Assembly (NCBI GenBank): GCA_012838795.1
Contig: DUOO01000052.1
Location: 1-42,307, forward strand
Source of the DNA: Clostridiaceae bacterium
Lineage (GTDB): Bacteria; Bacillota; Clostridia; Saccharofermentanales; DTU023
Length of the DNA: 42,307 nt
Direction of reading: 5' to 3'
Positions within the stretch are counted from its first letter, which is position 1; each line of letters begins with the position of its first letter. The translations under genes were made by a program, and so were the position numbers. The notes beneath the pieces were generated by a model that was not told the origin of the DNA, did no database searches, and was given only the letters and a program-made list of their open reading frames with translations. Shown in pieces: positions 8,061-25,006 of this stretch.

Positions 8061-8113
8061 ACATATATTATAGAAAAAAAATAATGAAATTATGTGTGAA
8101 GGAGCTACATTAT

Positions 8114-8959
8114 ATGATAAGAAAATTAGATCATGAACTTGAAAAGTCATTAATTATAAAATCAGCTAATGTCAGATTAGAAACAGTAAAAAGAATACAT
8201 AAAGTAGGTGCAGGTCACACGGGCGGAGATATGTCTGCTGCTGATATTTTAATTGCATTATATACATATATGAATGTAAATCCCGAAAACATAAATTCAA
8301 AAACACGAGATTATTTTATTTTAAGTAAAGGACACTCTGCAGAAATATACTATGAAGTTTTAGCGGAGTTTGGTTTTTTTGAAAAGAAGCGGTTAGATTC
8401 TTTAGGGAAATTAGGTTCTGAGTTTGGAGGACATCCAACCAAAAACATTCCCGGAGTAGAAGCGAACACCGGATCTTTGGGACATGGATTAGGCATTGGT
8501 GTAGGTATTGCTCTGGGACTAAAACGAGACAAAATGAAGAATCAAGTTTTTGTATTAACCGGCGATGGTGAACTTGCGGAAGGAAGTAACTGGGAAGCTG
8601 CAATGGCGGCAAATAAGTTTGAACTGGACAATTTAACATTAATAATTGATCGGAATTATTTGCAAATCAGCGGGAAATCGGAAAATGTGATGCCTCTAGA
8701 ACCTTTGGATAAAAAGATGGAATCTTTTGGTTTCAAAGTATTAAAAATTAATGGTCATGATTATAGAGAAATTTTTGAAGCATTGAACTCTTCATTTGAT
8801 GGAAAACCAAAAGCTATTATTGCTGAAACAATTAAAGGATACGGAATTAGAGATGGTGAGGGAATTGCTTCATGGCATCATATGGTGCCAAACAAAGAAC
8901 AAGTTATTCAAATGGAAATTGATATGAAAAGAATTGTTGAGGAAATTAATAATGTCTAA
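8114..8959 (+). CDS. Transketolase, N-terminal (TPP-binding) subunit
   Basis: This 281-aa subunit carries the diphosphate and TPP-binding half of a split transketolase. Visible features are GHTGGDMSAADI near residue 35, the GHGLGIGVGIALG segment, the TPP motif GDGELAEGSNWEAAM and IIDRN. The frame is open from 8084, but ATG 8114 has AAGGAG nine bases upstream and is the better start. The partner subunit begins before this gene ends, overlapping by 8 bases, which indicates translational coupling and equal production. Split transketolases occur both as housekeeping enzymes and in dedicated sugar pathways. Its position next to a DeoR gene, an ABC importer and FGGY kinases argues for the dedicated role. 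Confidence 0.92.
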   Translation: MIRKLDHELEKSLIIKSANVRLETVKRIHKVGAGHTGGDMSAADILIALYTYMNVNPENINSKTRDYFILSKGHSAEIYYEVLAEFGFFEKKRLDSLGKLGSEFGGHPTKNIPGVEANTGSLGHGLGIGVGIALGLKRDKMKNQVFVLTGDGELAEGSNWEAAMAANKFELDNLTLIIDRNYLQISGKSENVMPLEPLDKKMESFGFKVLKINGHDYREIFEALNSSFDGKPKAIIAETIKGYGIRDGEGIASWHHMVPNKEQVIQMEIDMKRIVEEINNV

Positions 8960-9890
8960 ACAAAAAGCAAGAGAAGTATTCTCGAAAAAAATCTTAGAAC
9001 GAGCTAAAAAAGACTCTTCAATTTTTGTTGTTTGCAGTGATTCTATGGGATCAGCAATGATTGAAGATTTTGCCAAAGAGCTTCCTGAGCAATTTGTAGA
9101 GATGGGAATTGCTGAACAAAATGCGGTAACGGTTGCTTCAGGATTAGCTTCATTGGGGAAAAAAGTGTTTGTAATTGGACCTGCCAGTTTCTATAGTACT
9201 CGTGCAGCGGAACAAATAAAAGTGGATGTAGCTTATTCAAATAATAACGTGAAAATAATGGGTATTAGTGGAGGAATAAGTTACGGAAATCTTGGGGCTA
9301 CACATCATTCGGTTCAGGATATTGCGTTTATGAGAGCAGTTACGAATCTGGATGTTTTAATTCCGGCAGATGGCAATCAGATGGGAGCACTTGTTGATTT
9401 GCTATTAGAGAATGAAAATCCGACATATGTTCGCATAGGAAGGGGAGAAGTAGATGACATTTATGATAAATCAGAAGTATTTAAAATAGGTGGCTCAAAA
9501 GTACTTCGCAAAGGAAACGACATAGCTATATTTACATGTGGGCAACTTGTTAGCAGAGCCTTGGCATTATCTGATTTATTAGAAGTAAGAGGATATAGTG
9601 CTTCTGTTGTAGATATTTATTCAGTAAAACCCATAGACCAAGGAACAATAATAGATATTGCAAAAAAATGTGGTGCAGCGTTGACAATAGAAGAACATAG
9701 TGTGTTTGGAGGTTTGGGAGGTGCAATAGCAGAAATTTTAGTACAAGAATATCCCATACCTATGTATATAGCAGGGATTCCCGATGAAGAAATTCCAAAT
9801 GGCACAGATTTAGAAGTTTTTGATGTTATTGGTCTTAATCAGAATGAGTTACTGGAAAAAGCTCTTATTTTAATCGAAAAAAGGCTTTGA
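8952..9890 (+). CDS. Transketolase, C-terminal subunit
   Basis: This is a 312-aa partner of the preceding subunit, containing the pyrimidine-binding domain and the C-terminal transketolase domain. The pyrimidine-binding region shows FVEMGIAEQNAVTVASGLA, with the catalytic glutamate in GIAEQN. THHSVQD and the late EEHSVFGGLG are typical of the family. The frame opens at 8934, but ATG 8952 has GAGGA eight bases upstream and gives the usual MSKQKAREVF-like start. The gene overlaps the N-terminal subunit by 8 bases. No terminator is obvious after the stop. The next promoter starts about 60 bases downstream. Confidence 0.92.
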   Translation: MSKQKAREVFSKKILERAKKDSSIFVVCSDSMGSAMIEDFAKELPEQFVEMGIAEQNAVTVASGLASLGKKVFVIGPASFYSTRAAEQIKVDVAYSNNNVKIMGISGGISYGNLGATHHSVQDIAFMRAVTNLDVLIPADGNQMGALVDLLLENENPTYVRIGRGEVDDIYDKSEVFKIGGSKVLRKGNDIAIFTCGQLVSRALALSDLLEVRGYSASVVDIYSVKPIDQGTIIDIAKKCGAALTIEEHSVFGGLGGAIAEILVQEYPIPMYIAGIPDEEIPNGTDLEVFDVIGLNQNELLEKALILIEKRL

Positions 9891-10262: not shown

Positions 10263-11459
10263 ATGAAAAAAGTGAAAAAAGTATTGGCGTTATTATTGAT
10301 TGTTGTTTTTGCGTTTAGTTTGTTAACAACAGGATGTGGTGATAAAGATAAGAAAGAAGAAGCTTCGGATACACCAAAAGAAGACGCTAAGGAAGAAGTC
10401 AAGGAAGAAGCGAAGGATGATGCAGAAAAGGCTAAGGACGATGATGCAGAGGAAGCCAAAGACGATGACGCAGAAGAAGTCAAGGAAGAGACTTCAGATG
10501 AAAAATTGAAAACTGATATGGCGACAGCAATATCGGTAGGTGATTATGAACCGAAAAAAGATGAGTACTATTTTGCATATACATACAAGCTTATTCATCC
10601 ATGGTATGATGCGATTAAAGTTGGTATTGATGCGGCTGTAGCTCAATATGCTGACAAAGGCGTAAAAATCACATATGATTATACTGCCCCGGTAACAGCA
10701 GATGCTGTGGAACAAATTAATATGATTGAATCTGCTGCAGCGAAAAATCCTGATGTTGTAGCGATCGATGTAAACCAAGTTGATTTGACAGTTCCAATCA
10801 TAAGTGAACTGACTGCAAATGGTGTAAAAGTTTTAACATTTTCAGGTGGTGATGCAGTAGACAGTGATAGAATTGCTTTTATCGGTAATACTGATAATAA
10901 AGGTGATGGTGCGAAATTGGCTGAGATTTTGGCAGAAGCTATCGGTTATGAAGGAGAGGTAGCTTGCCTTGATGGTACCATCGGAGCATCTTCGCATGAA
11001 GAGCGTATAGAAGGTTTCAATGAAGTAATGGCAAAATATCCTGATATTACTGTGGTCGACAGACAAAGAGATGATGATGATCTTGAAAAAGCTGTTCAAT
11101 TGACTGAAGCTTTCATACAAAAACACCCGAATCTTAAAGGTATTTGGTGAAATAATATGACTAATCCTATTGGCGCTGCACAGGCTGTAGTTGACGCAGG
11201 TAAAAAAGGAGAAATTCAAATTGTTGGAATGGATCATGATTTACGTACTTTAGAATATGTAGAAGATGGAACAATTTTGGCTGCTCAAGTTCAAAATAAC
11301 TACGACATGGGATTCTACTTAGTCACTACCTCTGTAAAGGCAGCTGACGGTGCAACTGTTGGCAACGGAATTGACGAAGAAAGATTTAATGTAGGGTCTA
11401 CAAGTGTGTTCCAAGATGAAGCGAGAAAATACATTGATTTGCTTTATGGTGCAGAATAA
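10263..11459 (+). pseudogene. Sugar ABC transporter binding lipoprotein, interrupted by in-frame TGA
   Basis: This is a RbsB-like (LacI-type fold) periplasmic/surface sugar-binding lipoprotein. A signal peptide ends in the lipobox LTTGC near residue 25. A very acidic, lysine-containing low-complexity linker follows (about 30-80), then the two-lobed binding domain. A TGA at 11148-11150 interrupts the frame after KHPNLKGIW. The same frame continues without a shift (NNMTNPIGAAQAV) to the TAA at 11457-11459 and encodes the expected C-terminal third. The gap is one codon, so a single substitution would restore a normal 398-aa protein. As written, the protein lacks its C-terminal lobe and should not work unless the TGA is read through or is a sequencing error. 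It is the first gene of the importer operon, with a strong ribosome site GAAAGGAG. Confidence 0.85.
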
Positions 11460-11501
11460 GTTTGGTAAATTGAATAATCTTTTTTCTTGAAAAGAGACTT
11501 T

Positions 11502-11526
11502 CCGCCCATAATGTTATTATGGGTGG
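11502..11526 (+). other. Intercistronic hairpin after the binding-protein gene
   Basis: CCGCCCATAAT and ATTATGGGTGG form an 11-bp stem, with one G-U pair in RNA, around a GTT loop. No T-tract follows. Such hairpins between a binding-protein gene and its ATPase gene commonly protect the upstream mRNA or reduce downstream expression. That role is inferred from position. Confidence 0.65.
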
Positions 11527-11545
11527 AAGCATTTAAGGGGGACTC

Positions 11546-13039
11546 ATGTCAAAAGTTATACTGAAACTCGATAATATCAACAAAACGTTTCCTGGAACAA
11601 AGGCCTTAAATAATGTAAGTATAGATTTAGCAGAAGGAGAAATTCTTGCTATTATCGGAGAGAACGGGGCAGGAAAAAGTACACTCATGAAAGTTTTAAT
11701 GGGTTTGTACAAAAGCGATTCAGGTGAAATATATTTAGATGATGAACGTGTTGAAATTCAAAGTCCTTATCATGCACTTCAAATCGGAATAGGAATGGTT
11801 CCTCAGGAACTTAATTTGATACCGGAATTAACTGTAGCTGAGAACATTTTTTTGGGTCATGAAATCAAGAAAAACGGTCTTTCTATTATTGATTGGAAAA
11901 AAACGAGAATTGAAGCAATTAAATTTATTGAGCAACTAAATGTAGATATCAATATTAATGAAAAAATTTCAAATCTTAGTGCTGCGTTACAACAAATAGT
12001 TTCAATAGCCAGGCTTATTGCACATGGATCTCGAATATTGATTCTTGATGAACCCACGGCATCTTTGACAAAAAACGAATCTGAAAGCTTATTTGAAACA
12101 ATAGAAATATTGCAAAAGCAGGGAAAATCCATTATTTATATTTCACATCATCTGGAGGAAATTAAACGCTTGTGTCATAGAGTAGTTATTATGCGAGATG
12201 GTTCCGTCGTAACAGAAAATCAAGTGGAAAATATCAGCATTAATGAAATGATTTTTGCGATGACGAACAGGGTTATTGATCAAGGTTCTAAACAGATAAG
12301 ACAATATAGTGACGAAACAGTACTTGAAGTAAATAATTATTCTAGAGCGGGAGAATTTAATAATATTTCTTTCGAATTAAAAAGAGGAGAGATTTTAGGA
12401 ATAGCAGGTCTTGTTGGATCCGGACGTACAGAATTAATTGAAACAATTTATGGGTTGAAAAAACCTGATGAGGGTACGCTTAAATTATTTGGCGAAGAGG
12501 TAACTTTTAAAGATACCTATGAAGCCTTAAATAATGGTTTGGGCTTAGTGCCTGAAGAAAGAAGATATCATGGTATTTTTCCGGTTCTTTCCGTTTCTGA
12601 CAATTTGATTATGCCGAGTTTAAAGCAAAATTCGCATTCAGGTTTAATAATCAACTATCCGAAAATTAAAAAAAATGTTGAAGAATTAATTGAAAAATTA
12701 TTAATAAAAACACCGTCTGATAAGACCCCGATCTTAAATTTGAGTGGCGGAAATCAGCAAAAGGTTATTCTTGCAAGATGGATAGCTCAAGGCGCGAATA
12801 TTTTATTCTTAGACGAACCTACTCGTGGCATAGATGTTAATGCAAAACAAGAAATATATAAATTAATATTTGAATTAGCTGATAATGGAGTTTCTATCAT
12901 ATTAATTTCGTCTGAATTGGAAGAAGTTATTAAATTATCGGATAGAATAATGGTTATGTTCAATGGACAAAAAAAAGGAATAATTGATTCTGTTCAAAAT
13001 GTTACAGAAGATGACATCCTAAGTGTCGCATTAAATTAA
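11546..13039 (+). CDS. Sugar ABC transporter ATP-binding protein (RbsA/MglA type)
   Basis: This 497-aa cytoplasmic protein has two tandem ABC domains, as in ribose, galactose and xylose importers. The N-terminal domain has Walker A GENGAGKST (about 37-45), a weakened signature (LSAALQQ instead of LSGGQQ) and Walker B ILILDEPTASL. The C-terminal domain has a degenerate Walker A (GLVGSGRTEL), a good signature LSGGNQQKV and LFLDEPTRGID. This asymmetry is normal for the family. The ribosome site is AAGGGGG. It would power the neighbouring permease and take sugar from the binding protein, but both of those genes carry premature stops while this frame is intact. Confidence 0.92.
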   Translation: MSKVILKLDNINKTFPGTKALNNVSIDLAEGEILAIIGENGAGKSTLMKVLMGLYKSDSGEIYLDDERVEIQSPYHALQIGIGMVPQELNLIPELTVAENIFLGHEIKKNGLSIIDWKKTRIEAIKFIEQLNVDININEKISNLSAALQQIVSIARLIAHGSRILILDEPTASLTKNESESLFETIEILQKQGKSIIYISHHLEEIKRLCHRVVIMRDGSVVTENQVENISINEMIFAMTNRVIDQGSKQIRQYSDETVLEVNNYSRAGEFNNISFELKRGEILGIAGLVGSGRTELIETIYGLKKPDEGTLKLFGEEVTFKDTYEALNNGLGLVPEERRYHGIFPVLSVSDNLIMPSLKQNSHSGLIINYPKIKKNVEELIEKLLIKTPSDKTPILNLSGGNQQKVILARWIAQGANILFLDEPTRGIDVNAKQEIYKLIFELADNGVSIILISSELEEVIKLSDRIMVMFNGQKKGIIDSVQNVTEDDILSVALN

Positions 13040-13058
13040 AATAAAGTAAGGTATTAAT

Positions 13059-14030
13059 ATGAAAACAAACAGCAAATTAAGCAATAACAAACCAATTTCT
13101 GAATTATTTAAATCCACAACATTCGCTGTATTACTTATAACTGTTCTTATAGCAGTGGTTGTTCATGTAGTGACAGGCAACTTTTTTTCAAGCTATAATG
13201 TCAGTACTGTTATAAGACAAATATCTTTTATTGCAATAGTATCTTTTGGTTAGACTTTAGTTTTGCTAACTGGTGGAATAGATCTTTCCGTTGCAAGTAT
13301 TGCAGCATTTTGCAGTATGACAACTGCTTTATTAATGACAAAAGCCAATGTCAATCCGTTTATAAGCTTGTTAGTAGCTCTTGTTTTAGGAGGAGTTTTA
13401 GGTTGTTTAAATGGATTATTGATTCATTATATTAGACTAACTCCATTTATTGTTACATTAGCTACCGGATCAGTTTTTACAGGAATTGTCTATGTAATTA
13501 CCAGAGGGATGCCTATAGTAGGAATTCCGGATTCTGTTTCAATTATCGGACAAGGGATGCTAGGTGGAGTCTTACCTTATCCAACAATTATTATGTTTGT
13601 CATTCTTATATTAATAGTATTAATGTTAAAATACACCACATTTGGCAGACATATATATGCAATAGGCGGAAATGAATATGCTTCCAGCATTGTTGGTATC
13701 AGAGTAGGCCGCGTTAAAGTTATGGTATATACATTATCAGGTTTATTAGCCAGTTTAGCAGGTATCTTAATGGTTCTAAGACTAGCTTCTTCACAAGTAA
13801 ATATAGGTGAGGATTGGAACATGCCCTCAATTACAGCTGCAGTATTAGGTGGAACTTCAATGAGTGGTGGCTCAGGTAATGTGGTAGGGTCTTTTATTGG
13901 AGCATTACTAATGGGTGTATTAAGTAATAGCATTACTTTGTTGGGAATATCGTCATATTGGAATGATATTGTAACGGGTATAGTAATTTTAGTTGCTGTT
14001 ATCATTGATGCACTTCGAGAGAAAAATTAA
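13059..14030 (+). pseudogene. Sugar ABC transporter permease (RbsC-like), interrupted by in-frame TAG
   Basis: This is a multi-pass inner-membrane permease of the ribose/xylose/AI-2 type. The reading frame is interrupted by TAG at 13251-13253, after 64 residues ending IAIVSFG, and continues in the same frame with TLVLLTGGIDLSVASIAAF to the TAA at 14030. The family segment normally reads G-[QMTL]-TLVILTGGIDLS. Glutamine is common at the position of the stop, so CAG to TAG by one C-to-T change is the simplest explanation. Without the stop the protein would be 323 aa, the normal length. Together with the TGA in the binding protein, two of three importer genes are broken as sequenced. Confidence 0.85.
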
Positions 14031-14190: not shown

Positions 14191-15153
14191 TTGGAAGCGA
14201 AGATGCTATTAGAAATGTATGAACAAATGGATTTAATTCGTACATATGAGGAAACGCTGTATTATCTTTTCCTGGAAGGAATAATGCCGGGATCGATACA
14301 CCAATCTCACGGTCAAGAAGCATGTGCAGTGGGAATGCTATATGGACTCAGAAAAACAGACTATATGGCATCTACGCATAGACCTGCGGGGCATGATATT
14401 GCAAAAGGCGTATCTGTTAAAGATATGATGTGTGAGATGTTTGGTAAAGAGGATGGTTGTTGTAAAGGAAGAGGCGGTGCAATGCACACGGGAGACATTA
14501 CTGTGGGCGCGATTCCTGCCAATGCTATTGTAGGAGGCAATATTCCGATATCTACCGGTATAGGACTTTCGTTAAAAATGCAAAAACGAGATGATGTAGT
14601 AGTTTGTTTTTTTGGAGATGGTGCTTCAAATGAAGGAGCATTTCATGAAGGACTAAACGGAGCAGCAATTTGGAAATTGCCAGTGATTTTTGTATGTGAG
14701 AACAACTTGTATGGAGCATCAACATCAATCAAAAATACGCTTAATATTGAAGATATTGCTTTAAGAGCAGATTCTTACGGAATGCCCGGGGAAGTGGTTG
14801 ACGGAAACGATGTTTTAGCAGTTTATGCAGCAGCTCAAAGAGCCATCACGAGAGCAAGAAAAGGAGAAGGTCCTACATTGTTAGAATTAAAAACTTATAG
14901 AATAGCCGGACATTCAAGGAGTGATGGTTGTGCATATAGGGATGATGTTGAAGAAGCTGAATGGTTTGCCAGAGATCCTATTGAATTACTTAAAAATAAA
15001 ATATTGAAAGAAAAAATTGCTGATGAACAAATCTTGGCTGACATTCATGAAAAAAATGAGCAAATAGTTAATGAGGCTGTAGATTATGCGATTGAGGCAA
15101 AAGAGCCATCTGTTGATGATGTACTATTAAACGTTTATTGGGAAGGTGATTAG
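14191..15153 (+). CDS. TPP-dependent 2-oxoacid/acetoin dehydrogenase E1, alpha subunit
   Basis: This 320-aa subunit of a branched-chain/pyruvate/acetoin dehydrogenase-type E1 binds thiamine diphosphate. The TPP motif GDGASNEGAFHEGLN followed by ENN is clear in the middle of the protein, and HQSHGQEACAVG and KGRGGAMHT are typical of AcoA/PdhA proteins. The start is TTG at 14191. A perfect AGGAGG (14177-14182) lies eight bases before it, and the next ATG, at 14203, is too far from it. The E1 beta gene follows after three bases. The complex oxidatively decarboxylates or cleaves a 2-oxo substrate and passes the acyl group to E2. Whether the substrate is pyruvate, acetoin or a pathway-specific compound is not resolved. 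Confidence 0.92.
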   Translation: MEAKMLLEMYEQMDLIRTYEETLYYLFLEGIMPGSIHQSHGQEACAVGMLYGLRKTDYMASTHRPAGHDIAKGVSVKDMMCEMFGKEDGCCKGRGGAMHTGDITVGAIPANAIVGGNIPISTGIGLSLKMQKRDDVVVCFFGDGASNEGAFHEGLNGAAIWKLPVIFVCENNLYGASTSIKNTLNIEDIALRADSYGMPGEVVDGNDVLAVYAAAQRAITRARKGEGPTLLELKTYRIAGHSRSDGCAYRDDVEEAEWFARDPIELLKNKILKEKIADEQILADIHEKNEQIVNEAVDYAIEAKEPSVDDVLLNVYWEGD

Positions 15154-15156
15154 ATT

Positions 15157-16173
15157 ATGGCACAATTAACAATGGTCCAAGCTTTAAATAAAGCAATTGC
15201 TGACGAAATGGAAAGAGATTCGAGTGTTTTTTGTTTAGGTGAAGATATCAGCGACAAAGATGGCGGATTCGGTGGAGCTTTTGCTGTAACTAGAGGATTG
15301 TATGAAAAATTCGGTGAAGAAAGAGTTCTCAATACTCCAATTTCTGAAATACTGATTTCAGGAGCAGCTATAGGTGCTGCAATGGTGGGATCAAGACCTA
15401 TTGCTGATTTGCAATATGGAGATTTTATTTTTTGCATGATGGATCAATTATGCAACCAAGCTGCAAAGATGTGTTATATGTCTGGTGGCCAAGTGAAAGT
15501 TCCTATGGTCTTGAGAGCACCGGTGGGAGCTACTCAACGTGGTGCTCAACATGCCCAAAGTCTTGAAGGCTTTTTCACCAGAGTACCGGGACTAAAAGTA
15601 ATTTGTCCTGCAACTCCATATGATGCGGTCGGTCTTTTAAAAACAGCTATTAGAGATGACAATCCTGTTATTGTTTTTGAACATAAAAAACTTTATGGCG
15701 GAAAAAGAGTTGAAGCCGGAGCTATAGCTCCGGTCGGAGAAGTTCCTGACAAAGAATATACAATAGATTTCGGAAAAGCTGAAATTAAACGCGAGGGTAC
15801 AGATATCACAATAGTGGCAAATCTGTTAATGATGTATAGGGCAATGGAAGCAGCCAGTCACTTGGAAAAAGAAGGAATTTCTTGCGAAGTAATTGATCCT
15901 CGAACATTAGTACCGTTTGATTTTGATACTGTTATTAAATCCGTAAAGAAAACGGGAAGATTGATGATAGTACATGAAGATACTTACAGTAATGGTTGGG
16001 GAGCTGAGATTTCAGCATATGTTGCAGAACATGCTATTTACTATCTGGACGCACCGATCGTTCGTGTTACAACTTACGATACACCAATACCTTTTTCTCC
16101 TGTTTTAGAGGATTATGTAATTCCCTCGACAGAAAGAATTATTGAATCAGTACGTCAACTTATGGATAGTTGA
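15157..16173 (+). CDS. TPP-dependent 2-oxoacid/acetoin dehydrogenase E1, beta subunit
   Basis: This 338-aa partner of the alpha subunit has the transketolase-type pyrimidine-binding and C-terminal domains. Conserved family blocks are visible: VFCLGEDI near residue 25, NTPISE with the catalytic-site glutamate, ADLQYGDF and a late EDTYSNGWGAE. The length is normal. The gene starts three bases after the alpha subunit stop, with the ribosome site (GGAAGG) inside the alpha gene's 3' end, so production is coupled. E1 alpha and beta form the heterotetramer that feeds the E2 lipoyl arm encoded two genes downstream. Confidence 0.92.
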   Translation: MAQLTMVQALNKAIADEMERDSSVFCLGEDISDKDGGFGGAFAVTRGLYEKFGEERVLNTPISEILISGAAIGAAMVGSRPIADLQYGDFIFCMMDQLCNQAAKMCYMSGGQVKVPMVLRAPVGATQRGAQHAQSLEGFFTRVPGLKVICPATPYDAVGLLKTAIRDDNPVIVFEHKKLYGGKRVEAGAIAPVGEVPDKEYTIDFGKAEIKREGTDITIVANLLMMYRAMEAASHLEKEGISCEVIDPRTLVPFDFDTVIKSVKKTGRLMIVHEDTYSNGWGAEISAYVAEHAIYYLDAPIVRVTTYDTPIPFSPVLEDYVIPSTERIIESVRQLMDS

Positions 16174-16222: not shown

Positions 16223-17131
16223 ATGAGAATAAATTATAGAGAATTAATAGAAGATGCACAAAATAGGAGTTATGCCATAGGATACTTTGAGGCTTGGAAT
16301 ATTGAATCCCTTATCTCGATTGTCAAAGCGGCAGAAAACAAAAGATCTCCTGTTATGATAGGATTTTGTGGTGAATATTTAGAGAATGCAGAAAGAAAAT
16401 ATGAGGTTGATTTAGAGTTATTTTCTAAAATAGCAAAAGAAGTGGCTTTAAAATCAAGTGTACCGGTAATAACTTTATTAAACGAATCAAACACTGTTGA
16501 ATACACTCTAAAAGGTATAGAAGCGGGATTTGATTCTGTCATGTATGTAGATGAAAAAATAGAACTTGAAGAAATGATAATCAGACAACAAAAAATAGTT
16601 GATCAGGCACACAGAAAAGGCATTTTAGTAGAGGGGGAGATCGGTAGTTTAGGACTTGTAGATGCAAGTTCCGGTGATTTTTATGAAGGTAATAAAACAA
16701 GACCTGAAGATGCAGTTTATTTTGCAGAAAAAACAAATGTAGATTTACTGGCGATCTCTTTTGGTAATGTTCACTTATTGGAAAAGTCCAAAGCTGAACT
16801 GGATTTTGATTTGCTGAAAACAATAAATGAAAAAGTGTCCATCCCGTTAGTTTTACACGGAGGAACAGGTATTGCAGACGAAGATTTCAAAAAAACAATT
16901 GAAAATGGAATAGTAAAAGTCAATATTGGCGCAGGCTTAAAAAGAGAAGTTATCAAGAGCATTCAAAACTATTTTGAAGAATACGATGTTGATGAGATGA
17001 ATCCTAATGATGTATTAGGAAAAGGGAATCTACAAGACTTAGATTTTTATTCTCATGAAGGTTTAATTACAAAAGTAATGAACTATATGGATCTCTTCAA
17101 TAGTACGGGAAAGGCGGACAAATATATATGA
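16223..17131 (+). CDS. Class II fructose-bisphosphate aldolase homologue with altered active site
   Basis: This 302-aa TIM-barrel protein is clearly of the class II aldolase family. It keeps VEGEIG, ISFGNVH (zinc histidine) and LVLHGGTG (zinc histidine). The segment that normally reads LHLDHG, holding the catalytic aspartate and the first zinc histidine, here reads TLLNES: Asp becomes Asn and His becomes Glu. The DHAP-binding NxDTD segment is also changed, to NIGAG. Classical fructose-1,6-bisphosphate aldolase activity is therefore doubtful. It may act on another phosphoketose, or catalyse a different reaction with a Glu zinc ligand. It sits between E1 and E2 in one operon; its stop overlaps the E2 start (ATGA), which ties its function to the complex. 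Confidence 0.82.
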   Translation: MRINYRELIEDAQNRSYAIGYFEAWNIESLISIVKAAENKRSPVMIGFCGEYLENAERKYEVDLELFSKIAKEVALKSSVPVITLLNESNTVEYTLKGIEAGFDSVMYVDEKIELEEMIIRQQKIVDQAHRKGILVEGEIGSLGLVDASSGDFYEGNKTRPEDAVYFAEKTNVDLLAISFGNVHLLEKSKAELDFDLLKTINEKVSIPLVLHGGTGIADEDFKKTIENGIVKVNIGAGLKREVIKSIQNYFEEYDVDEMNPNDVLGKGNLQDLDFYSHEGLITKVMNYMDLFNSTGKADKYI

Positions 17132-18363
17132 AAAAAATAAAAATGCCTCCGGGAGGTCAGAATGTTGATGAGTTAATGATTACGACTTGGGAAAAATCAG
17201 TGGGAGATCAGGTAAAAAGAGGAGATATTCTTTTAACTGTTGAAACAGATAAAGCTGCAATGGATGTGGAAAGTTTTGCCTCCGGAACCTTGTTAAAAAT
17301 CTTTTACGAAGAAGGTGAGGTGGTAAAAATTGGTGATGTAATAGCTTTAGTTGGAAATCCGGATGAAATAGCAGAAATTAAGAAATCTGCTGAATATGAG
17401 AAATCAATTGACATTCAATCTCCAACAGTTGAAGTATCTGAAGCTATAGAGGATGAGTACCAACCTATTATGCCGACAGAAACTGACAAAGCAGAAAAAG
17501 ATTTAAAGTATGAAGATAAAAGTAGTGATGAATTTATTAGAGTATCCCCGGCAGCAAAAAAATTAATACGAGATAATAAATTAAATATTGAAGATATTGA
17601 ACCGACAAAAGGGAAAATCAGTCAAAAGGATGTAGAAGAATATATCAAGAAGAATCAAACAACACCAAAAGAAGAAAGTGATTTTAAGCGGATTCCTCTT
17701 ACTAATGCAAGAAAAACAATTTCAAAAAGATTAACAAAGAGTGTTCAAGAAAGACCTACTTTCCATGCTGAAGTTGAAATTGATTGTACTGAAATTATTA
17801 AATTACGCAAAGATCTTTTTGAAAAATATCAAGAAAAGGTATCTTATAATGACATTATTGCCAAAGCATTAGTAAATTGTATCAAAGAGTATCCATTGAT
17901 CAATGCAAAAATGACAGAGCAAGATATTATTGTTTTTAACTCCGTTAATGTGGGAATCGCTGTTGCTCTTGAAGAGAATCTAATAGTTCCTGTTGTTAAA
18001 AATGTAGAAAAATTAACAATTTTGGAAATTGCGAAAAATAATTCTGAAAATATTAATACTGTGAGATCCGGAAAGTTTAATCCGGAAATAACTCAAAATG
18101 GTACCATTACGATTTCAAATATGGGAATGTTTAATATTTCTCGATTTACGGCAATTCTTAATCCTCCTGAAGTAACAATATTAGCAATAGGAAGAATAAA
18201 TAAAGAACCGATTTGGAATGAAGAACAAGAGAAGTTTGTAGCAAAACCGTTGATGACAATAACAGGTACGTTTGATCATAGAGTTGTTGATGGTGCCTAT
18301 GGAGCGAAATTCCTTAATATGTTGAGAGAATTATTAGAAAATCCGTTGTTAATGTTGGCATAG
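17128..18363 (+). CDS. Dihydrolipoamide acyltransferase (E2) of the dehydrogenase complex
   Basis: This 411-aa core enzyme of the complex has one N-terminal lipoyl domain (about 1-78) with the lipoyl lysine in ETDKAAMD (K42), an acidic linker and a peripheral-subunit-binding domain (about 138-175; RVSPAAKKLI to KDVEEYIKK). The catalytic acyltransferase domain ends in DHRVVDG, with the active-site histidine near residue 384. It transfers the acyl group from lipoate to CoA. The lipoyl domain begins KKIKMPPGGQNV, a little unlike the usual MPKLGETV pattern. The start overlaps the aldolase-like gene stop by four bases. The E3 gene follows after 34 bases. Confidence 0.92.
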   Translation: MKKIKMPPGGQNVDELMITTWEKSVGDQVKRGDILLTVETDKAAMDVESFASGTLLKIFYEEGEVVKIGDVIALVGNPDEIAEIKKSAEYEKSIDIQSPTVEVSEAIEDEYQPIMPTETDKAEKDLKYEDKSSDEFIRVSPAAKKLIRDNKLNIEDIEPTKGKISQKDVEEYIKKNQTTPKEESDFKRIPLTNARKTISKRLTKSVQERPTFHAEVEIDCTEIIKLRKDLFEKYQEKVSYNDIIAKALVNCIKEYPLINAKMTEQDIIVFNSVNVGIAVALEENLIVPVVKNVEKLTILEIAKNNSENINTVRSGKFNPEITQNGTITISNMGMFNISRFTAILNPPEVTILAIGRINKEPIWNEEQEKFVAKPLMTITGTFDHRVVDGAYGAKFLNMLRELLENPLLMLA

Positions 18364-18397
18364 TTAACTTGGTTGATAAAGATGATTGGAGACCTTA

Positions 18398-19801
18398 ATG
18401 AAAAAATATGACCTAATAGTTATAGGTGGGGGACCTGCGGGTTATGCCGGGGCGTTAAAAGCGGCTCAATATGGAAAAAAGATTGCTCTTTTTGAAAAGG
18501 AAAAAATTGGCGGTGTATGTTTAAATGTCGGGTGTATACCGACTAAAGCTTTAAGTTCCAAAGCAGGTCTATTAGAAAACATCCGAACACAAACTCAAAA
18601 GGAAGTTCTTCGAGATGCAGGGTTATTCAGCTACAAAAAAATACAAAAACAAAAAAATGAAGTAGTTAATCGTTTGACACGCGGTGTCGACAGTTTATTG
18701 AAAGCGGCAGGCGTTGATGTATTTTTAAAAGAAGCCGAAATAATATCACCTAACGAAATAAAAGCAGGCTCGGAAGTATATTCAACAGAATATATTCTGA
18801 TTGCAACCGGTTCAAGTAATCTTTTGAATCTTTCTTTTGATAATAAGAATTTAAGTTATGACAGTACTGGATTACTTAATATTGACAGAGTTCCATCAAG
18901 AATGGTTATTATCGGCGCAGGTGTAATCGGTCTTGAAATGGCAAGCATTTTTAATTCATTTGGAACGAAGATAACGATTGTTGAACTATTACCTGAAATA
19001 TTGCCTGATTTTGATTCGGATGTTACAAAAGCATATCAAAGACAATTGGAGAAGAGAGGAATAGAATTCCAACTGGGCTCGCTGGTGAAATCAATAGATT
19101 CTATACAAGAGAATAAAAAACGTATCATTTTTACTGATAAAGACGGTCAAGAGCAAAACATAATTACGGATATAGTTTTATGTTCGATAGGAAGAAAACC
19201 TAATGTAGATAAAGCTAATGCCGAAAAATTGAATCTTAAGATTGATGAAAAAGGATTTATAGTTGTTAACAACATGATGCAAACAAACTTACCAAATATT
19301 TTTGCAGCAGGCGATATTACCGGAGCTCCTTTACTGGCTCATGTTGCAATTAAAGAAGCTGAGGTGGCAGTTAAGAATATGTTCTCAGACAAAAAAAATC
19401 ATCGTTCAACAAATTTGGTACCGTCATGTATTTATAGTTATCCTGCTTTAGCTAAAATCGGTTTAACAGCGAAACAAGCAAAAGAAAAAAATCTTGAGAT
19501 TTTGGAAGGTGTTTACAATTATATCGGGAACGGAATGGCACTTGCATTAGAAGAAACAACGGGATTTGCCAAAATAATTGTTTCAAAAAAAGACAAAAAA
19601 ATAGTAGGAGGCCAAATACTAGGTGAACAATCTGTTGAATTAATTATGCAACTGGCAGTTGTTATTGCGAATGAAATGACTGTTGATCAATGGGATGAAA
19701 AAATTATGGTTGCTCATCCGACACTTTCTGAAATTTTACATGAAGCAATTATGGATTCAGATAATAAGTCAATACATACACCTTTATCAAAGAAAAGTTA
19801 A
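18398..19801 (+). CDS. lpdA: Dihydrolipoamide dehydrogenase (E3)
   Basis: This 467-aa FAD enzyme reoxidises the E2 lipoyl group with NAD+. The FAD-binding motif GGGPAGYAGA starts at residue 10 and the redox disulfide CLNVGC is C41 and C46. A second Rossmann motif is GAGVIGLEMASIF, the second FAD motif is IFAAGDI, and the C-terminal HPTLSE (about 440-445) supplies the catalytic His-Glu pair across the dimer. All key residues are present. The frame opens with a TTG at 18386, but ATG 18398 with GGAG six bases upstream is the better start. It closes the dehydrogenase-complex gene set and is followed 41 bases later by the first FGGY kinase. Confidence 0.93.
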   Translation: MKKYDLIVIGGGPAGYAGALKAAQYGKKIALFEKEKIGGVCLNVGCIPTKALSSKAGLLENIRTQTQKEVLRDAGLFSYKKIQKQKNEVVNRLTRGVDSLLKAAGVDVFLKEAEIISPNEIKAGSEVYSTEYILIATGSSNLLNLSFDNKNLSYDSTGLLNIDRVPSRMVIIGAGVIGLEMASIFNSFGTKITIVELLPEILPDFDSDVTKAYQRQLEKRGIEFQLGSLVKSIDSIQENKKRIIFTDKDGQEQNIITDIVLCSIGRKPNVDKANAEKLNLKIDEKGFIVVNNMMQTNLPNIFAAGDITGAPLLAHVAIKEAEVAVKNMFSDKKNHRSTNLVPSCIYSYPALAKIGLTAKQAKEKNLEILEGVYNYIGNGMALALEETTGFAKIIVSKKDKKIVGGQILGEQSVELIMQLAVVIANEMTVDQWDEKIMVAHPTLSEILHEAIMDSDNKSIHTPLSKKS

Positions 19802-19842: not shown

Positions 19843-21396
19843 ATGAAAAAGTATTTGTTAGGCATAGATTACGGAACCGGTGGAGCAAAAGCTTGTATCA
19901 TAGACGATGAAGCAAATGTAATTGCATATTCTTACAGAGAATATCCTATTTATACACCTAATCCTGGCTGGTCGGAACACGATCCCAATCTATATTGGCC
20001 GATAGCTTGTGACATGATTCAGGAATGTTTGGCTGAAGCAGGTGTAAATCCGAAAGACATTAAAGGTATTGCAAATTCTTCAGCACTTCCTTCAATGGTT
20101 ATGGTTGATAAAAATAATAATCCTATTAATTTTGCATATAACCTGATGGATCGTCGAGCGAGCGAGGAAGTCAGATGGATTGAAGAAAATATTGGTGGTA
20201 AAAAGATATTTGAAATTAGCTGTAATAGACTTGAAGATCATCCTTTTTTCGTAAACTTAATGTGGGAAAAGGCAAATCGTCCTGATGATTATAATTCAAT
20301 ATACAAAGCACTGACAATTGATGGCTATATTCGTTTAAAATTAACAGGAGAAGCAACAGCAAATTATTCTTCGGGAAGTTTCTTTGGCGTAGCATACGAT
20401 ATCAGAACAGACGAAATAGATCAGAATATTTTGAACAAAATCGGCATTTCAAAAGAGATATTACCTGATTTTTTCCCATGTGATCATATTGTAGGTTATG
20501 TGACTGATCAAGCCGCAAAGGAAACCGGTTTAGTTCCCGGAATACCGGTAGCCGCAGGATCTGTGGACTGTAATGCAGGTTGGATATCCGGTGGCGCAAT
20601 AGAAGTTGGAGATATGCAAGTTAATTTGGGGACGAGCGGTGTAATGGGAGTTATTCATAGAGATCCCAATTTAATGGTTGATAGTCTATTAAATTCCAGT
20701 TATACAACCGGACCGGATGATTATGTAACGATAACTGCTACGACAACCGGTGGACAAGCATTAAGATATATTCGAGATAATTTATCACAATTAGAAGTAG
20801 CTACCGAAAACCTTGTTCCCGGCTTCAATTCCTATCAAGCTCTGGACGCAGAAGCAGAGCAGATAAATATTGGTGCCGATGGTTTGATCTTTTTACCTTA
20901 TCTTATGGGAGAAAGAACTCCACTCTGGGATCCAAAAGCCAGAGGTGTATTATTCGGCTTGTCATTAAATCATACAAAAGGTCATATTGTTCGTGCTACT
21001 TTAGAAGGAGTTGCTTTTGCTCTTTATGAATCTTTTGAAATATTAAAACAACAATGTTCGAAAATCAATTATCCGATTGTAATGAATGAGGGTGGTGCAA
21101 AGAGTAAAATTTGGCGCAGAATTATTACAGATGTTTTTAATGTACCTACTGTACTATTAAAAAGCAGAACAGGAGCACCTTTAGGGGATGCAATTTTAGC
21201 CGGTGTTGCAACGGGAGTTTTCCCTTCATTTCAGATTGCGAAAGATACGGCAGAATATATCGACAGAATGGAACCGGATCAAAAAGCTCATGATAGATAC
21301 ATGCAGTATTATGAATTATATAAACAAGTATATATAAACGTGAAAGATAATTTTGCAGATTTAGAATTGATTAGAGATCAACAGATATCACTATAA
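19843..21396 (+). CDS. FGGY-family carbohydrate kinase (xylulokinase-like)
   Basis: This 517-aa ATP-dependent kinase phosphorylates a ketose or polyol. The N-terminal ATP-binding motif is GIDYGTGGAK (about 7-16). WSEHDP, a mid-protein AAGSVDCNAGW and the C-terminal NEGGAKSKIWRRIITDV and GDAILAG are typical of the xylulokinase/ribulokinase branch. The aspartate in SVDCNAG is at the position of the catalytic base. The ribosome site is GGAAGGAG. The gene follows E3 closely and probably belongs to the same long operon. The substrate cannot be read from sequence. In context it would be the ketose made by the dehydrogenase next door, or the product of an isomerase. Confidence 0.9.
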   Translation: MKKYLLGIDYGTGGAKACIIDDEANVIAYSYREYPIYTPNPGWSEHDPNLYWPIACDMIQECLAEAGVNPKDIKGIANSSALPSMVMVDKNNNPINFAYNLMDRRASEEVRWIEENIGGKKIFEISCNRLEDHPFFVNLMWEKANRPDDYNSIYKALTIDGYIRLKLTGEATANYSSGSFFGVAYDIRTDEIDQNILNKIGISKEILPDFFPCDHIVGYVTDQAAKETGLVPGIPVAAGSVDCNAGWISGGAIEVGDMQVNLGTSGVMGVIHRDPNLMVDSLLNSSYTTGPDDYVTITATTTGGQALRYIRDNLSQLEVATENLVPGFNSYQALDAEAEQINIGADGLIFLPYLMGERTPLWDPKARGVLFGLSLNHTKGHIVRATLEGVAFALYESFEILKQQCSKINYPIVMNEGGAKSKIWRRIITDVFNVPTVLLKSRTGAPLGDAILAGVATGVFPSFQIAKDTAEYIDRMEPDQKAHDRYMQYYELYKQVYINVKDNFADLELIRDQQISL

Positions 21397-21494
21397 TTCT
21401 GAAAAAGAGAATACAAGTTGGTTAGACAAAAAAGGGATAGAGTAAATATTTATATATAATAATTAGTTTTTTAAAATTTAGAATGGAGGGTTCT

Positions 21495-22541
21495 ATGGAA
21501 GGAAAAATGAAGGTTTGTGTATTGACAGGTAAAAAAGAGTTGGAATGGGTTGAGAGAGATATTCCGCAACCTGCAGAAGGGGAATTACAAATTAAATTAG
21601 AATATGTTGGTATTTGTGGTTCTGATTTACATTTCTACGAAGAAGGTCGTTTAGGTAACTGGGAATTAAACGGTCCCTTGGCTTTAGGTCATGAACCTGC
21701 AGGTGAAGTTACTGCAATTGGTAAAGGTGTGAAAGGTTTTGAAATAGGAGATAAAGTTTCTATTGAACCTGCTGTGCCATGTGGTACTTGTCCGGATTGT
21801 CGTAAGGGCCATTATAATTTATGCTCCAGTATTCAAATGTTAGCGATACCCAATGAAAAAGATGGTGTTTTTGCAGAATATTGTGTACACGAAGCAAGTA
21901 TGTGTTTCAAATTGCCGGAAGGTGTAGATACATTGGAAGGAGCAATGATTGAACCTCTGACAGTAGGTATGCACGCATGTGCTCTTTCGAATCCGACAGT
22001 TGGTGATAATGCAATTATTTTAGGTAGCGGATGTATCGGTTTAGTAACATTATTAACTCTAAAAGCAAGAGGTGTAAGTGAAATCTATGTAACCGATATA
22101 ATGCCGGCAAGGCTTGAGAAAGCCAAAGAGTTAGGAGCAACTCGTGTATTTGATTCGACAAAAGAAAATATAGTTGAATTTGCAAAAACGTTGCCGGGTG
22201 GAGGAGTAAGTCACGTATTTGAATGTGCTGGTAATAAAATAACAACTTTAGAGAGTAGTCAATTGATTAAAAGAAGTGGAAAAATTACATTAGTTGGAGT
22301 ATCCCCTGATCCTATAATGGAGATGGATTTTGCTACAATCAACGCCATGGAAGGTACAGTATATTCAGTTTACAGATATAGAAACTTACATCAAAAAGGG
22401 ATAGATGCTGTTGCAAGCGGTTCAATTCCAGTAAGAAAAGTGGTTTCACATGTATACGATTTTGATGATTGTATTCATGCAATTGAGCATAGTTCATCCA
22501 ATAAAGATGTCGTAATAAAAGGAGTAGTTAAATTTATTTAA
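21495..22541 (+). CDS. Zinc-dependent polyol dehydrogenase (sorbitol/xylitol dehydrogenase-like)
   Basis: This 348-aa medium-chain dehydrogenase/reductase oxidises a polyol to a ketose with NAD+. Catalytic-zinc residues are seen in GICGSDLHFY and GHEPAG. The four structural-zinc cysteines are in CGTCPDCRKGHYNLC. The Rossmann motif GSGCIGLV is followed by YVTDIMPARLEKAKELGA, whose aspartate suggests NAD+. The frame opens at 21483, but ATG 21495 lies 4-5 bases after GGAGGG and is preferred; ATG 21507 is also possible. Flanked by two FGGY kinases, it fits an oxidise-then-phosphorylate step in polyol use. Confidence 0.9.
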   Translation: MEGKMKVCVLTGKKELEWVERDIPQPAEGELQIKLEYVGICGSDLHFYEEGRLGNWELNGPLALGHEPAGEVTAIGKGVKGFEIGDKVSIEPAVPCGTCPDCRKGHYNLCSSIQMLAIPNEKDGVFAEYCVHEASMCFKLPEGVDTLEGAMIEPLTVGMHACALSNPTVGDNAIILGSGCIGLVTLLTLKARGVSEIYVTDIMPARLEKAKELGATRVFDSTKENIVEFAKTLPGGGVSHVFECAGNKITTLESSQLIKRSGKITLVGVSPDPIMEMDFATINAMEGTVYSVYRYRNLHQKGIDAVASGSIPVRKVVSHVYDFDDCIHAIEHSSSNKDVVIKGVVKFI

Positions 22542-22564: not shown

Positions 22565-24043
22565 GTGGCGCAATATATTTTAGCAATAGATCAAAGTACT
22601 CAAGGAACGAAAGCACTTATAATTGATCAAAACGGGGATATAGTTTGTCGAAAAACCAAAGAACATAGACAAATTATAACTCCGGAAGGATGGATAGAGC
22701 ATGATCCTATTGAAATATATGAGAATCTATTGACAATGGTTAGAGATATATTATTAGCCCAAAAGATCGCTCCCAAGGATATCAGAGTAATAGGGCTATG
22801 TAATCAAAGAGAAACTACTTTAGCATGGGATAAAAACACAGGTGAACCTCTATATAATGCGATTGTTTGGCAATGTGATCGGGCACAAATAATTACTCAG
22901 AAAATTATTGACCAAGGTTATGCAGCATATATTAAGAAGGTAACGGGTATTCCTGCATCACCTTATTACTCTGCAGCAAAAATGACATGGTTCTTTGAAA
23001 ATGTTGAAGAAATTAATATCAAGGCTAAGAATAATGAAGTGTGTTTTTCGACAATGGATAGTTGGTTATTATTTCAGATGCTTGGCGGAACTCCGAAGAC
23101 AGATTATTCTAATGCTGCGAGAACACAGTTATTCAACATCAACGAATTGAAGTGGGATGAGGAACTATGTGATATTTTTAATGTTCCGATTAATAGTTTG
23201 CCGGAGCTTTGTCCATCGAATGATTTGTTTGGATATACTGATTTGGCAGGAATTTTTCCGGAACCGATACCGATTCATTCAGTTATGGGTGATTCTAACG
23301 GAGCCATGTATGCTCAAGGTTGTCATAAATTTGGAATGGTTAAAGCGACCTACGGGACAGGTTCTTCAGTAATGATGAATATAGGAAATAAACCAATTTT
23401 CAATGAGGAAGGAGTTGTGACTTCAATTGGATGGTTTGTGGATAATAAACCCACTTATGTACTTGAAGGAAATATTAATTACACCGGAGCAGTCACACAA
23501 TGGTTAGTAGATGATCTGAAAATTCTTGAAAAAGCTTCTCTTGCCGGAACAGTTGCCGGTAGAGCCAGAGATATTGAAGGTCTCTATTTAATTCCTGCAT
23601 TCAGTGGTTTAGGTGCACCATACTGGAAAAACAACGTAAGAGCTATGATTTGTGGTATGGATAGAAATACCGGCAATGCCGAGATTGTTCGTGCAGGTGA
23701 AGAATGTATTGCATATCAAATTACGGATATTATTTCAATAATGGAAAAAGAAATCCAACAAAGAATAGAACATTTACGTGTTGATGGTGGTCCTACAAAA
23801 GATAAGTTTCTAATGCAATTTCAGTCAGATATCACTGATTCGGATGTAAGAGTTGCTCAGATTGAGGAATTGTCAGGAAGCGGTGTAGGTTTTATGGCAG
23901 GAATAGCTGTTAATTTGCTTGATGAGAATACTATTTTCAACAAAAAACCTGCAGCTGTCTACAGATCGTCCATGGCAGACCATTTAAGAACAAAAAAAAT
24001 AAAAGGCTGGAAGTCAGCATTAGAAATGTTAATAAATGGATAA
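22565..24043 (+). CDS. FGGY-family kinase, glycerol-kinase-like
   Basis: This 492-aa kinase is closest in motifs to glycerol kinase: AIDQSTQGTKALI at the N-terminus, NQRETTLAWDK and YNAIVWQCDR at about 80-105, YGTGSSVMMN, SGLGAPYWKN and LRVDGGPTKDKFLMQFQSDI. The key aspartate region GDSNGAMYAQGC replaces the usual GDQQAALFGQ. It starts with GTG at 22565 behind GAGGT. It could phosphorylate glycerol or dihydroxyacetone, or another short polyol such as a tetritol or pentitol. Having two FGGY kinases flank one dehydrogenase suggests two substrates, or two alternative entry routes. An excellent terminator follows. Confidence 0.88.
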   Translation: MAQYILAIDQSTQGTKALIIDQNGDIVCRKTKEHRQIITPEGWIEHDPIEIYENLLTMVRDILLAQKIAPKDIRVIGLCNQRETTLAWDKNTGEPLYNAIVWQCDRAQIITQKIIDQGYAAYIKKVTGIPASPYYSAAKMTWFFENVEEINIKAKNNEVCFSTMDSWLLFQMLGGTPKTDYSNAARTQLFNINELKWDEELCDIFNVPINSLPELCPSNDLFGYTDLAGIFPEPIPIHSVMGDSNGAMYAQGCHKFGMVKATYGTGSSVMMNIGNKPIFNEEGVVTSIGWFVDNKPTYVLEGNINYTGAVTQWLVDDLKILEKASLAGTVAGRARDIEGLYLIPAFSGLGAPYWKNNVRAMICGMDRNTGNAEIVRAGEECIAYQITDIISIMEKEIQQRIEHLRVDGGPTKDKFLMQFQSDITDSDVRVAQIEELSGSGVGFMAGIAVNLLDENTIFNKKPAAVYRSSMADHLRTKKIKGWKSALEMLING

Positions 24044-24229: not shown

Positions 24230-25006
24230 TTAAGTTGCGATGATAGTCTCAATTCCTTGATTATTGAGACTTTTTATTATATGACTGGGTGTTTTATCGT
24301 CAGTAATTAAAATGTCAATTTCATTAATTGGCAAACCCAAACAGAGTGAAGTATGATTAAATTTTGTATAATCTGCTACGACAATTGTCGTTGCAGAAAT
24401 ATTTGAAAGAGCATTTTTTTCGTTACTATAAGTTATGTTTGCTTCAAATGTTCCTCTGGTTACATCAATTGCACGACAACAAATAAATGCAATATCTGCG
24501 GTAAAATTTCGAATAAAATTTTCTGAAGTGGAATCAAAAACAGTTTTAGACAAATTGTCTATAGTTCCTCCAACTTGAATAACACTACAATTCTGTTTCT
24601 GAGATAGAACAGATGAAGCTATTAATCCTGTAGAAATAGCAGTAAATTGCAAATGATCAGGAATAAAATTAACTATTGCTAAAGCGGTTGTTCCTCCATC
24701 GAAACAAACGATACTATCTATGGTTATATATTTGACAGCTGCTCTGGCGATTTTTCTTTTTTCTGCCCGGTTTCTTCCTATACGTTCATCAAAAGAAGGA
24801 AGGATATAATCTGGTTTCAGATAAGTTGCTCCGCCATGAAATCTGAGAACCAGTCCATTTGTTTCGAAATACTTAAGATCTCTTCTGATGGTCATTTCAG
24901 AATAGTGCAGTCTTTCTGCCAGAGAAGTAACTGATACAATTTCTTCTTCTTTTAATATATTAATTATCTTACTCTGTCTTTTGTTTTTGGCAATTGAGTT
25001 ATTCAT
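24230..25006 (-). CDS. DeoR-family transcriptional regulator (second)
   Basis: This 258-aa protein has the DeoR layout: a winged helix-turn-helix with EEEIVSVTSLAERLHYSEMT then IRRDLKYFETNGLVLRFHGGA (about 20-62), and a C-terminal effector domain with CFDGGTTALAI and VVADYTKF. It is only moderately similar to the first DeoR protein of the window, so the two may respond to different intermediates. It closes the island on the minus strand, convergent to the kinase operon. No strong ribosome site precedes the ATG. TCAAACA (25087-25093) and CGAACA (25131-25136) in its upstream region resemble the operator units of the island, hinting at auto- or cross-regulation. Confidence 0.88.
   Translation of the reverse strand: MNNSIAKNKRQSKIINILKEEEIVSVTSLAERLHYSEMTIRRDLKYFETNGLVLRFHGGATYLKPDYILPSFDERIGRNRAEKRKIARAAVKYITIDSIVCFDGGTTALAIVNFIPDHLQFTAISTGLIASSVLSQKQNCSVIQVGGTIDNLSKTVFDSTSENFIRNFTADIAFICCRAIDVTRGTFEANITYSNEKNALSNISATTIVVADYTKFNHTSLCLGLPINEIDILITDDKTPSHIIKSLNNQGIETIIAT

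Follow-up and report, generated by a model that had tools for sequence, protein, structure and literature searches.

A class II aldolase homologue with a changed active site, encoded beside a thiamine-dependent dehydrogenase complex, suggests an undescribed breakdown of sugars or sugar alcohols

Here, we analysed a 42,307-nucleotide stretch of DNA from a Clostridiaceae bacterium (the window), in which a gene for a class II aldolase homologue lies between the E1 and E2 genes of a dehydrogenase operon. The changed active site that a preliminary description had read from this gene was confirmed at the level of sequence: the catalytic Asp is replaced by Asn and one zinc His by Glu. Homologues carrying this Asn-Glu pair (N-E proteins) form, by alignment and phylogeny, a rare, well-conserved bacterial family that shares the same changes. 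The best explanation, which we hold with a confidence just short of an even balance, is that the window protein belongs to a distinct N-E clade and is an active metalloenzyme with altered chemistry, which would act on a ketose phosphate in the service of a dedicated ThDP/lipoyl complex.

Results

The gene and its genomic setting

The N-E gene is an intact reading frame of 302 amino acids with an ATG start, and its stop codon shares the letters ATGA with the start of the E2 gene at 17128, as the preliminary description had noted. The genes around it are as follows.

8084-9890, plus strand: split transketolase, N- and C-terminal halves; outside the set conserved in relatives
10263-14030, plus strand: sugar ABC transporter (binding protein, ATPase, permease)
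14191-15153, plus strand: E1 alpha of the N-E-linked E1 clade, ThDP motif GDGASNEG...CENN intact
15157-16173, plus strand: E1 beta with clade-specific insertions
16223-17131, plus strand: N-E class II aldolase homologue (PF01116) with N87/E88, E23, W25, N182 and G236
17128-18363, plus strand: E2, with lipoyl ETDKA and catalytic DHRVVDG motifs recognised by eye
18386-19801, plus strand: E3 dihydrolipoyl dehydrogenase (TIGR01350, above cut-off)
19843-21396, plus strand: FGGY sugar kinase, xylulokinase-like, below cut-off
21483-22541, plus strand: zinc-dependent polyol-type dehydrogenase
22565-24043, plus strand: glycerol-kinase-like FGGY kinase
24230-25006, minus strand: DeoR-family regulator

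In-frame stops were seen in the sugar-binding-protein gene (TGA, about 11148-11150) and in the permease gene (TAG, about 13252-13254), and in both the frame runs on beyond; these two different codons may represent nonsense mutations, recoding or assembly error. The same genome also encodes pyruvate:ferredoxin oxidoreductase (PFOR) and an ordinary class II aldolase, and therefore neither function depends on this operon. The ThrS encoded on this contig shares 97% identity with that of a congener, and we judge the contig to be native to the genome. Since the contig is native and the N-E gene was not found in any of 187 further genomes of the order, lateral acquisition of the gene appears likely.

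The window protein has a changed aldolase active site

PF01116 was the sole Pfam match of the window protein and covered its full length (residues 4-297, E 1.7e-62). Among all NCBIfam aldolase models none reached its curated cut-off, the best score for a fructose- or tagatose-bisphosphate aldolase being 189.9 bits against a cut-off of 343.05. An AlphaFold2 model of the protein showed a confident class II aldolase fold (mean pLDDT 94), and fold comparison gave Z 36.7 to a class II SFP aldolase.

In class II aldolases the zinc is held by three His, with an additional Glu in the resting site; a loop Glu deprotonates DHAP, and the Asp exchanges a proton with the evolving C4 hydroxyl (PMC11194214). 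Alignment of the window protein with solved aldolases and 61 homologues bore out the claim that LHLDHG had become TLLNES: where the family has VxxHLDHG the window protein reads VITLLNES, with His changed to Leu, N87 at the position of the catalytic Asp (Ec Asp109) and E88 at that of a zinc His. The other two zinc His regions are kept as described, with H184 in GNVH and H212 in LHGGTG, and the glutamates of VEGEIG are retained; the three-His zinc site is thus incomplete, its third position being E88. The possibility of an Asp-His pair elsewhere in the active site does not apply, as the strand is gap-free in the alignment and modelled there with a pLDDT of about 97. At the position of the mobile-loop carboxylate (Ec Glu182), in an uncertain part of the alignment, the window protein has D147, and the N-E clade is variable. 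The argument drawn from a change of NxDTD to NIGAG turned out to be mostly wrong: the Asn is kept, and the D position varies (D/A/N/F) in ordinary members. N-E proteins carry N-[VIY]-G-T at this site, and only the change of T to A (A237) is confined to the window protein.

Compared with class II fructose- and tagatose-bisphosphate aldolases of PF01116 (GatY/KbaY, FbaA, class II SFP aldolase and YdjI), the N-E protein keeps the whole-length fold, two zinc His, the VE[AG]E glutamates and the Gly phosphate loop, but differs in Asp to Asn, zinc His to Glu, Asn to Glu (E23), Thr to Asn (N182), Trp25 and Gly236, and in the linkage of its gene to E1 and E2.

N-E proteins form one clade across many phyla

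A single-protein scan of 84,980 genomes returned no relative of the window protein, and protein searches of 59 genomes of relatives, 391 of the class and 398 of the phylum found no homologue at the level of the N-E clade; the homologues that they did return scored well below the N-E relatives, and those aligned were all Asp-His. We then searched with a DNA pattern encoding P-[VI]-x4-N-E-x48-E-[GA]-E-x-G, taking exact matches to this one pattern only. It matched 52 stretches in 84,980 species, 46 of which encode homologues, with up to 42% identity to the window protein (E 7e-87). A match on a viral contig encoded no aldolase and was discarded. The Asp-His version of the pattern matched 55 of 72 loci, of which about 64 encode an ordinary aldolase, and was present in 82 of 101 phylum genomes. 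Given exact matching to a single pattern, the N-E clade is probably larger than sampled. The 46 loci belong to at least seven phyla, and their lineages include Bacteroidota, Lentisphaerae, Opitutae, Chthonomonas, Spirochaetes, Latescibacterota, Actinomycetota and Anaerolineae.

In trees built by fast methods with limited outgroups, 31 non-redundant N-E proteins fell into one clade apart from 37 ordinary aldolases (support 1.0). While the invariance of P81, N87, E88, E137, E139 and G141 is a consequence of the search pattern, Y21, E23 (previously N), W25, S29, N182 (previously T), G236 and K240 are clade-specific residues outside it, and they sit in conserved motifs at the barrel mouth. The window protein is a member of the clade by its N-E pair, by the motifs GYFE[AS]W, GN[VMI]H and K-x-N-x-G, and by its position in the tree. 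Between close N-E pairs dN/dS was 0.03-0.20, which indicates that the genes are under purifying selection.

Some Spirochaete paralogues are intermediate, among them one with Asp-Glu (L177:6112-7005); another Spirochaete paralogue (L176:5890-6915) has N-E together with GQVH and adjoins UPF0261 and PEP-hydrolase-like genes.

N-E genes are linked to a separate clade of E1 subunits

An E1 gene lay at most 1.5 kb away from 28 of the 46 N-E genes versus none of 64 ordinary aldolase genes (p = 3e-14, kinship ignored and the ordinary loci all from the phylum of the window). At 14 of the 46 N-E loci, some of them on short contigs, there was no E1 or E2 within 5 kb; gene calls in the N-E relatives were crude, and many loci are short contigs. 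The order E1 alpha-E1 beta-N-E-E2 seen in the window recurs in Bacteroidota and Lentisphaerae, where the next genes encode a lyxose/mannose-isomerase-like cupin (PF07385) and a PfkB kinase. Other arrangements were PfkB-N-E-E1 alpha-E1 beta-E2; a set of GlpD-like dehydrogenase, N-E, fused E1 and FGGY kinase; and, in Spirochaetes, FucI-like isomerase, FGGY, N-E and cupin. The neighbours of N-E genes include PF07385 isomerases, PfkB and FGGY kinases, and polyol or GlpD-like dehydrogenases, a gene content that suggests a ketose phosphate intermediate.

The E1 subunits linked to N-E genes form one clade (support 0.985/0.999), and an E1 of this clade was present in all 25 N-E genomes examined, including three where it does not lie beside the N-E gene. 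Members of the E1 clade that do not adjoin an N-E gene all come from N-E genomes with an unlinked gene, plus one further member from the phylum search (genome G446). E1 beta of the clade has a GG insertion and an extra segment, which in the window protein lie at residues 36-37 and around R184, respectively. Genome G446 carries the clade's E1-E2-E3 next to a zinc polyol-type dehydrogenase and genes for a galactitol-type PTS, and the search of this genome detected no N-E protein. This argues that the E1 complex would take a polyol- or ketose-derived substrate, and that it could do without the N-E protein as a subunit.

The window E1 alpha/E1 beta/E2/E3 share the architecture and the intact ThDP motif of acetoin and pyruvate dehydrogenase complexes, but differ from them in the separate E1 clade, the E1 beta insertions and the setting with sugar or polyol genes and an N-E protein. 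E1 alpha and E2 scored below the pyruvate-dehydrogenase equivalog cut-offs (333 versus 393.85 and 302.8 versus 445, respectively).

Several further loci were recorded. Genes resembling uroporphyrinogen decarboxylase (PF01208) were repeatedly seen next to N-E or E1 genes (L130, L140, L206 and L211). An ordinary Asp-His PF01116 gene adjoins E2 and E3 at L183:1-2942, in a genome that also has an N-E/E1 operon. At L185:3-5026, in the Anaerolineae genome of L086, the genes after E1 alpha and E1 beta encode three EutN/CcmL shell-vertex proteins and a PF01116 protein with Asp-His retained but seemingly no second zinc His, which hints at a microcompartment version. The genome of the window itself encodes a second, fused E1-type protein (G000:C6:52087-52965, L214), about 40% identical to the window E1 beta.

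Discussion

In the altered chemistry that we favour, the metal would be held by E88, H184 and H212, so that, as the alignment implies, a 2-His-1-Glu site would replace the usual three His. A probable substrate is a ketose phosphate, which a polyol dehydrogenase or an isomerase, together with a kinase, would produce upstream. With the Asp lost, normal cleavage should fail and a metal-bound enediolate be left; most likely, then, the N87 variant would still form this enediolate and not complete the normal retro-aldol reaction. Epimerisation, isomerisation or elimination could then yield a ketone or acyloin for the dedicated ThDP E1 to cleave, and E2 and E3 would convert the fragment to acyl-CoA with formation of NADH, in the way that acetoin dehydrogenase processes acetoin. 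The exact reaction and sugar are speculative; phosphate elimination to a 1-deoxy-diketone is one possible chemistry that we considered. A precedent for class II aldolase-like chemistry turned to epimerisation without net cleavage is the tagaturonate epimerase UxaE, which is metal-dependent and works by retro-aldol and aldol steps (PMC11194214), but its residues differ from those of the N-E protein. No entry named UxaE occurred among the best 60 of 65 profile matches. The preliminary description had argued for a changed reaction that feeds or drains the E1 complex. A changed reaction tied to the complex gained strong comparative support from the conserved clade with the same substitutions, the repeated linkage to one E1 clade across phyla (28/46 versus 0/64) and the ketose-phosphate gene set; the loss of aldolase activity is a prediction from the residues. 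As counterpoints to altered chemistry, A237 sets the window protein apart from its own clade, the mobile-loop carboxylate varies among N-E proteins, 14 of the 46 loci have no nearby E1 or E2, and gene linkage says nothing about the order of the reactions.

A rather unlikely alternative, though the strongest, is that the N-E protein is still a retro-aldolase that splits a ketose-1-phosphate into DHAP and an aldehyde, with E23 or E88 replacing the lost Asp and E1 processing a downstream product. E88 could act as acid/base, aldol cleavage thereby surviving; the retained fold, VE[AG]E glutamates, two zinc His and phosphate-site Gly fit this reading, as do neighbours that would produce ketose phosphates and GlpD-like and FGGY partners that suit ketose-1-phosphate. 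However, the Asp (PMC11194214) and the zinc His are replaced in all members found, partly by search design, and an ordinary Asp-His aldolase, a common enzyme, would suffice. For the D83A mutant of the Giardia enzyme, a crystal form containing FBP also suggests, as far as the title of entry 3gb6 indicates, that cleavage is lost without the Asp.

It is less probable still that the protein is a pseudoenzyme, present in the E1/E2 complex as a scaffold or a regulatory subunit. The loss of catalytic residues and the place of the gene between E1 and E2, overlapping the latter, would agree with such a role. Among known systems, GatZ/KbaZ are non-catalytic relatives that work with a catalytic class II aldolase; unlike the window protein, which matches PF01116 only, they belong to another Pfam family. 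Against the pseudoenzyme reading, conservation is strictest in the active-site motifs, 18 of the 46 N-E genes lie more than 1.5 kb from E1, and genome G446 has the same-clade operon with no N-E gene detected.

We consider it improbable that the operon encodes an ordinary pyruvate dehydrogenase complex, with the aldolase homologue as a mere passenger among sugar genes: E1 and E2 are indeed nearest to pyruvate dehydrogenase models and structures, but E1 alpha and E2 fall under the equivalog cut-offs, the E1 clade is separate with its own insertions, the genome has PFOR, and the linkage is repeated across phyla. A decayed gene, assembly error or misbinned contig, as the stops in two adjoining transporter genes and the absence from 187 other order genomes might imply, is very improbable in view of the intact frame, the clade common to many unrelated genomes, the purifying selection and the ThrS match.

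A literature search on the N-E/E1 gene combination found nothing relevant. Beyond the altered chemistry of the N-E protein, we tentatively propose, while thinking it doubtful as a whole, a new catabolic route in which polyol- or sugar-derived ketose phosphates would be readied by the N-E metal-enediolate enzyme and the acyloin bond split by the dedicated ThDP/lipoyl complex into acyl-CoA and a shorter aldehyde or acid, a route laterally spread over many phyla. The label 'class II fructose-bisphosphate aldolase', which at least one N-E homologue (from Arthrobacter) bears in its annotation, is probably an error. The N-E clade is a natural experiment on the rewiring of an aldolase active site. 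Together, the N-E clade and the E1 clade mark a likely new carbon-splitting pathway, testable in cultured relatives (Arthrobacter, Cryobacterium and Pollutibacter), and the aldolase homologue beside a thiamine-dependent complex suggests an undescribed breakdown of sugars or sugar alcohols.
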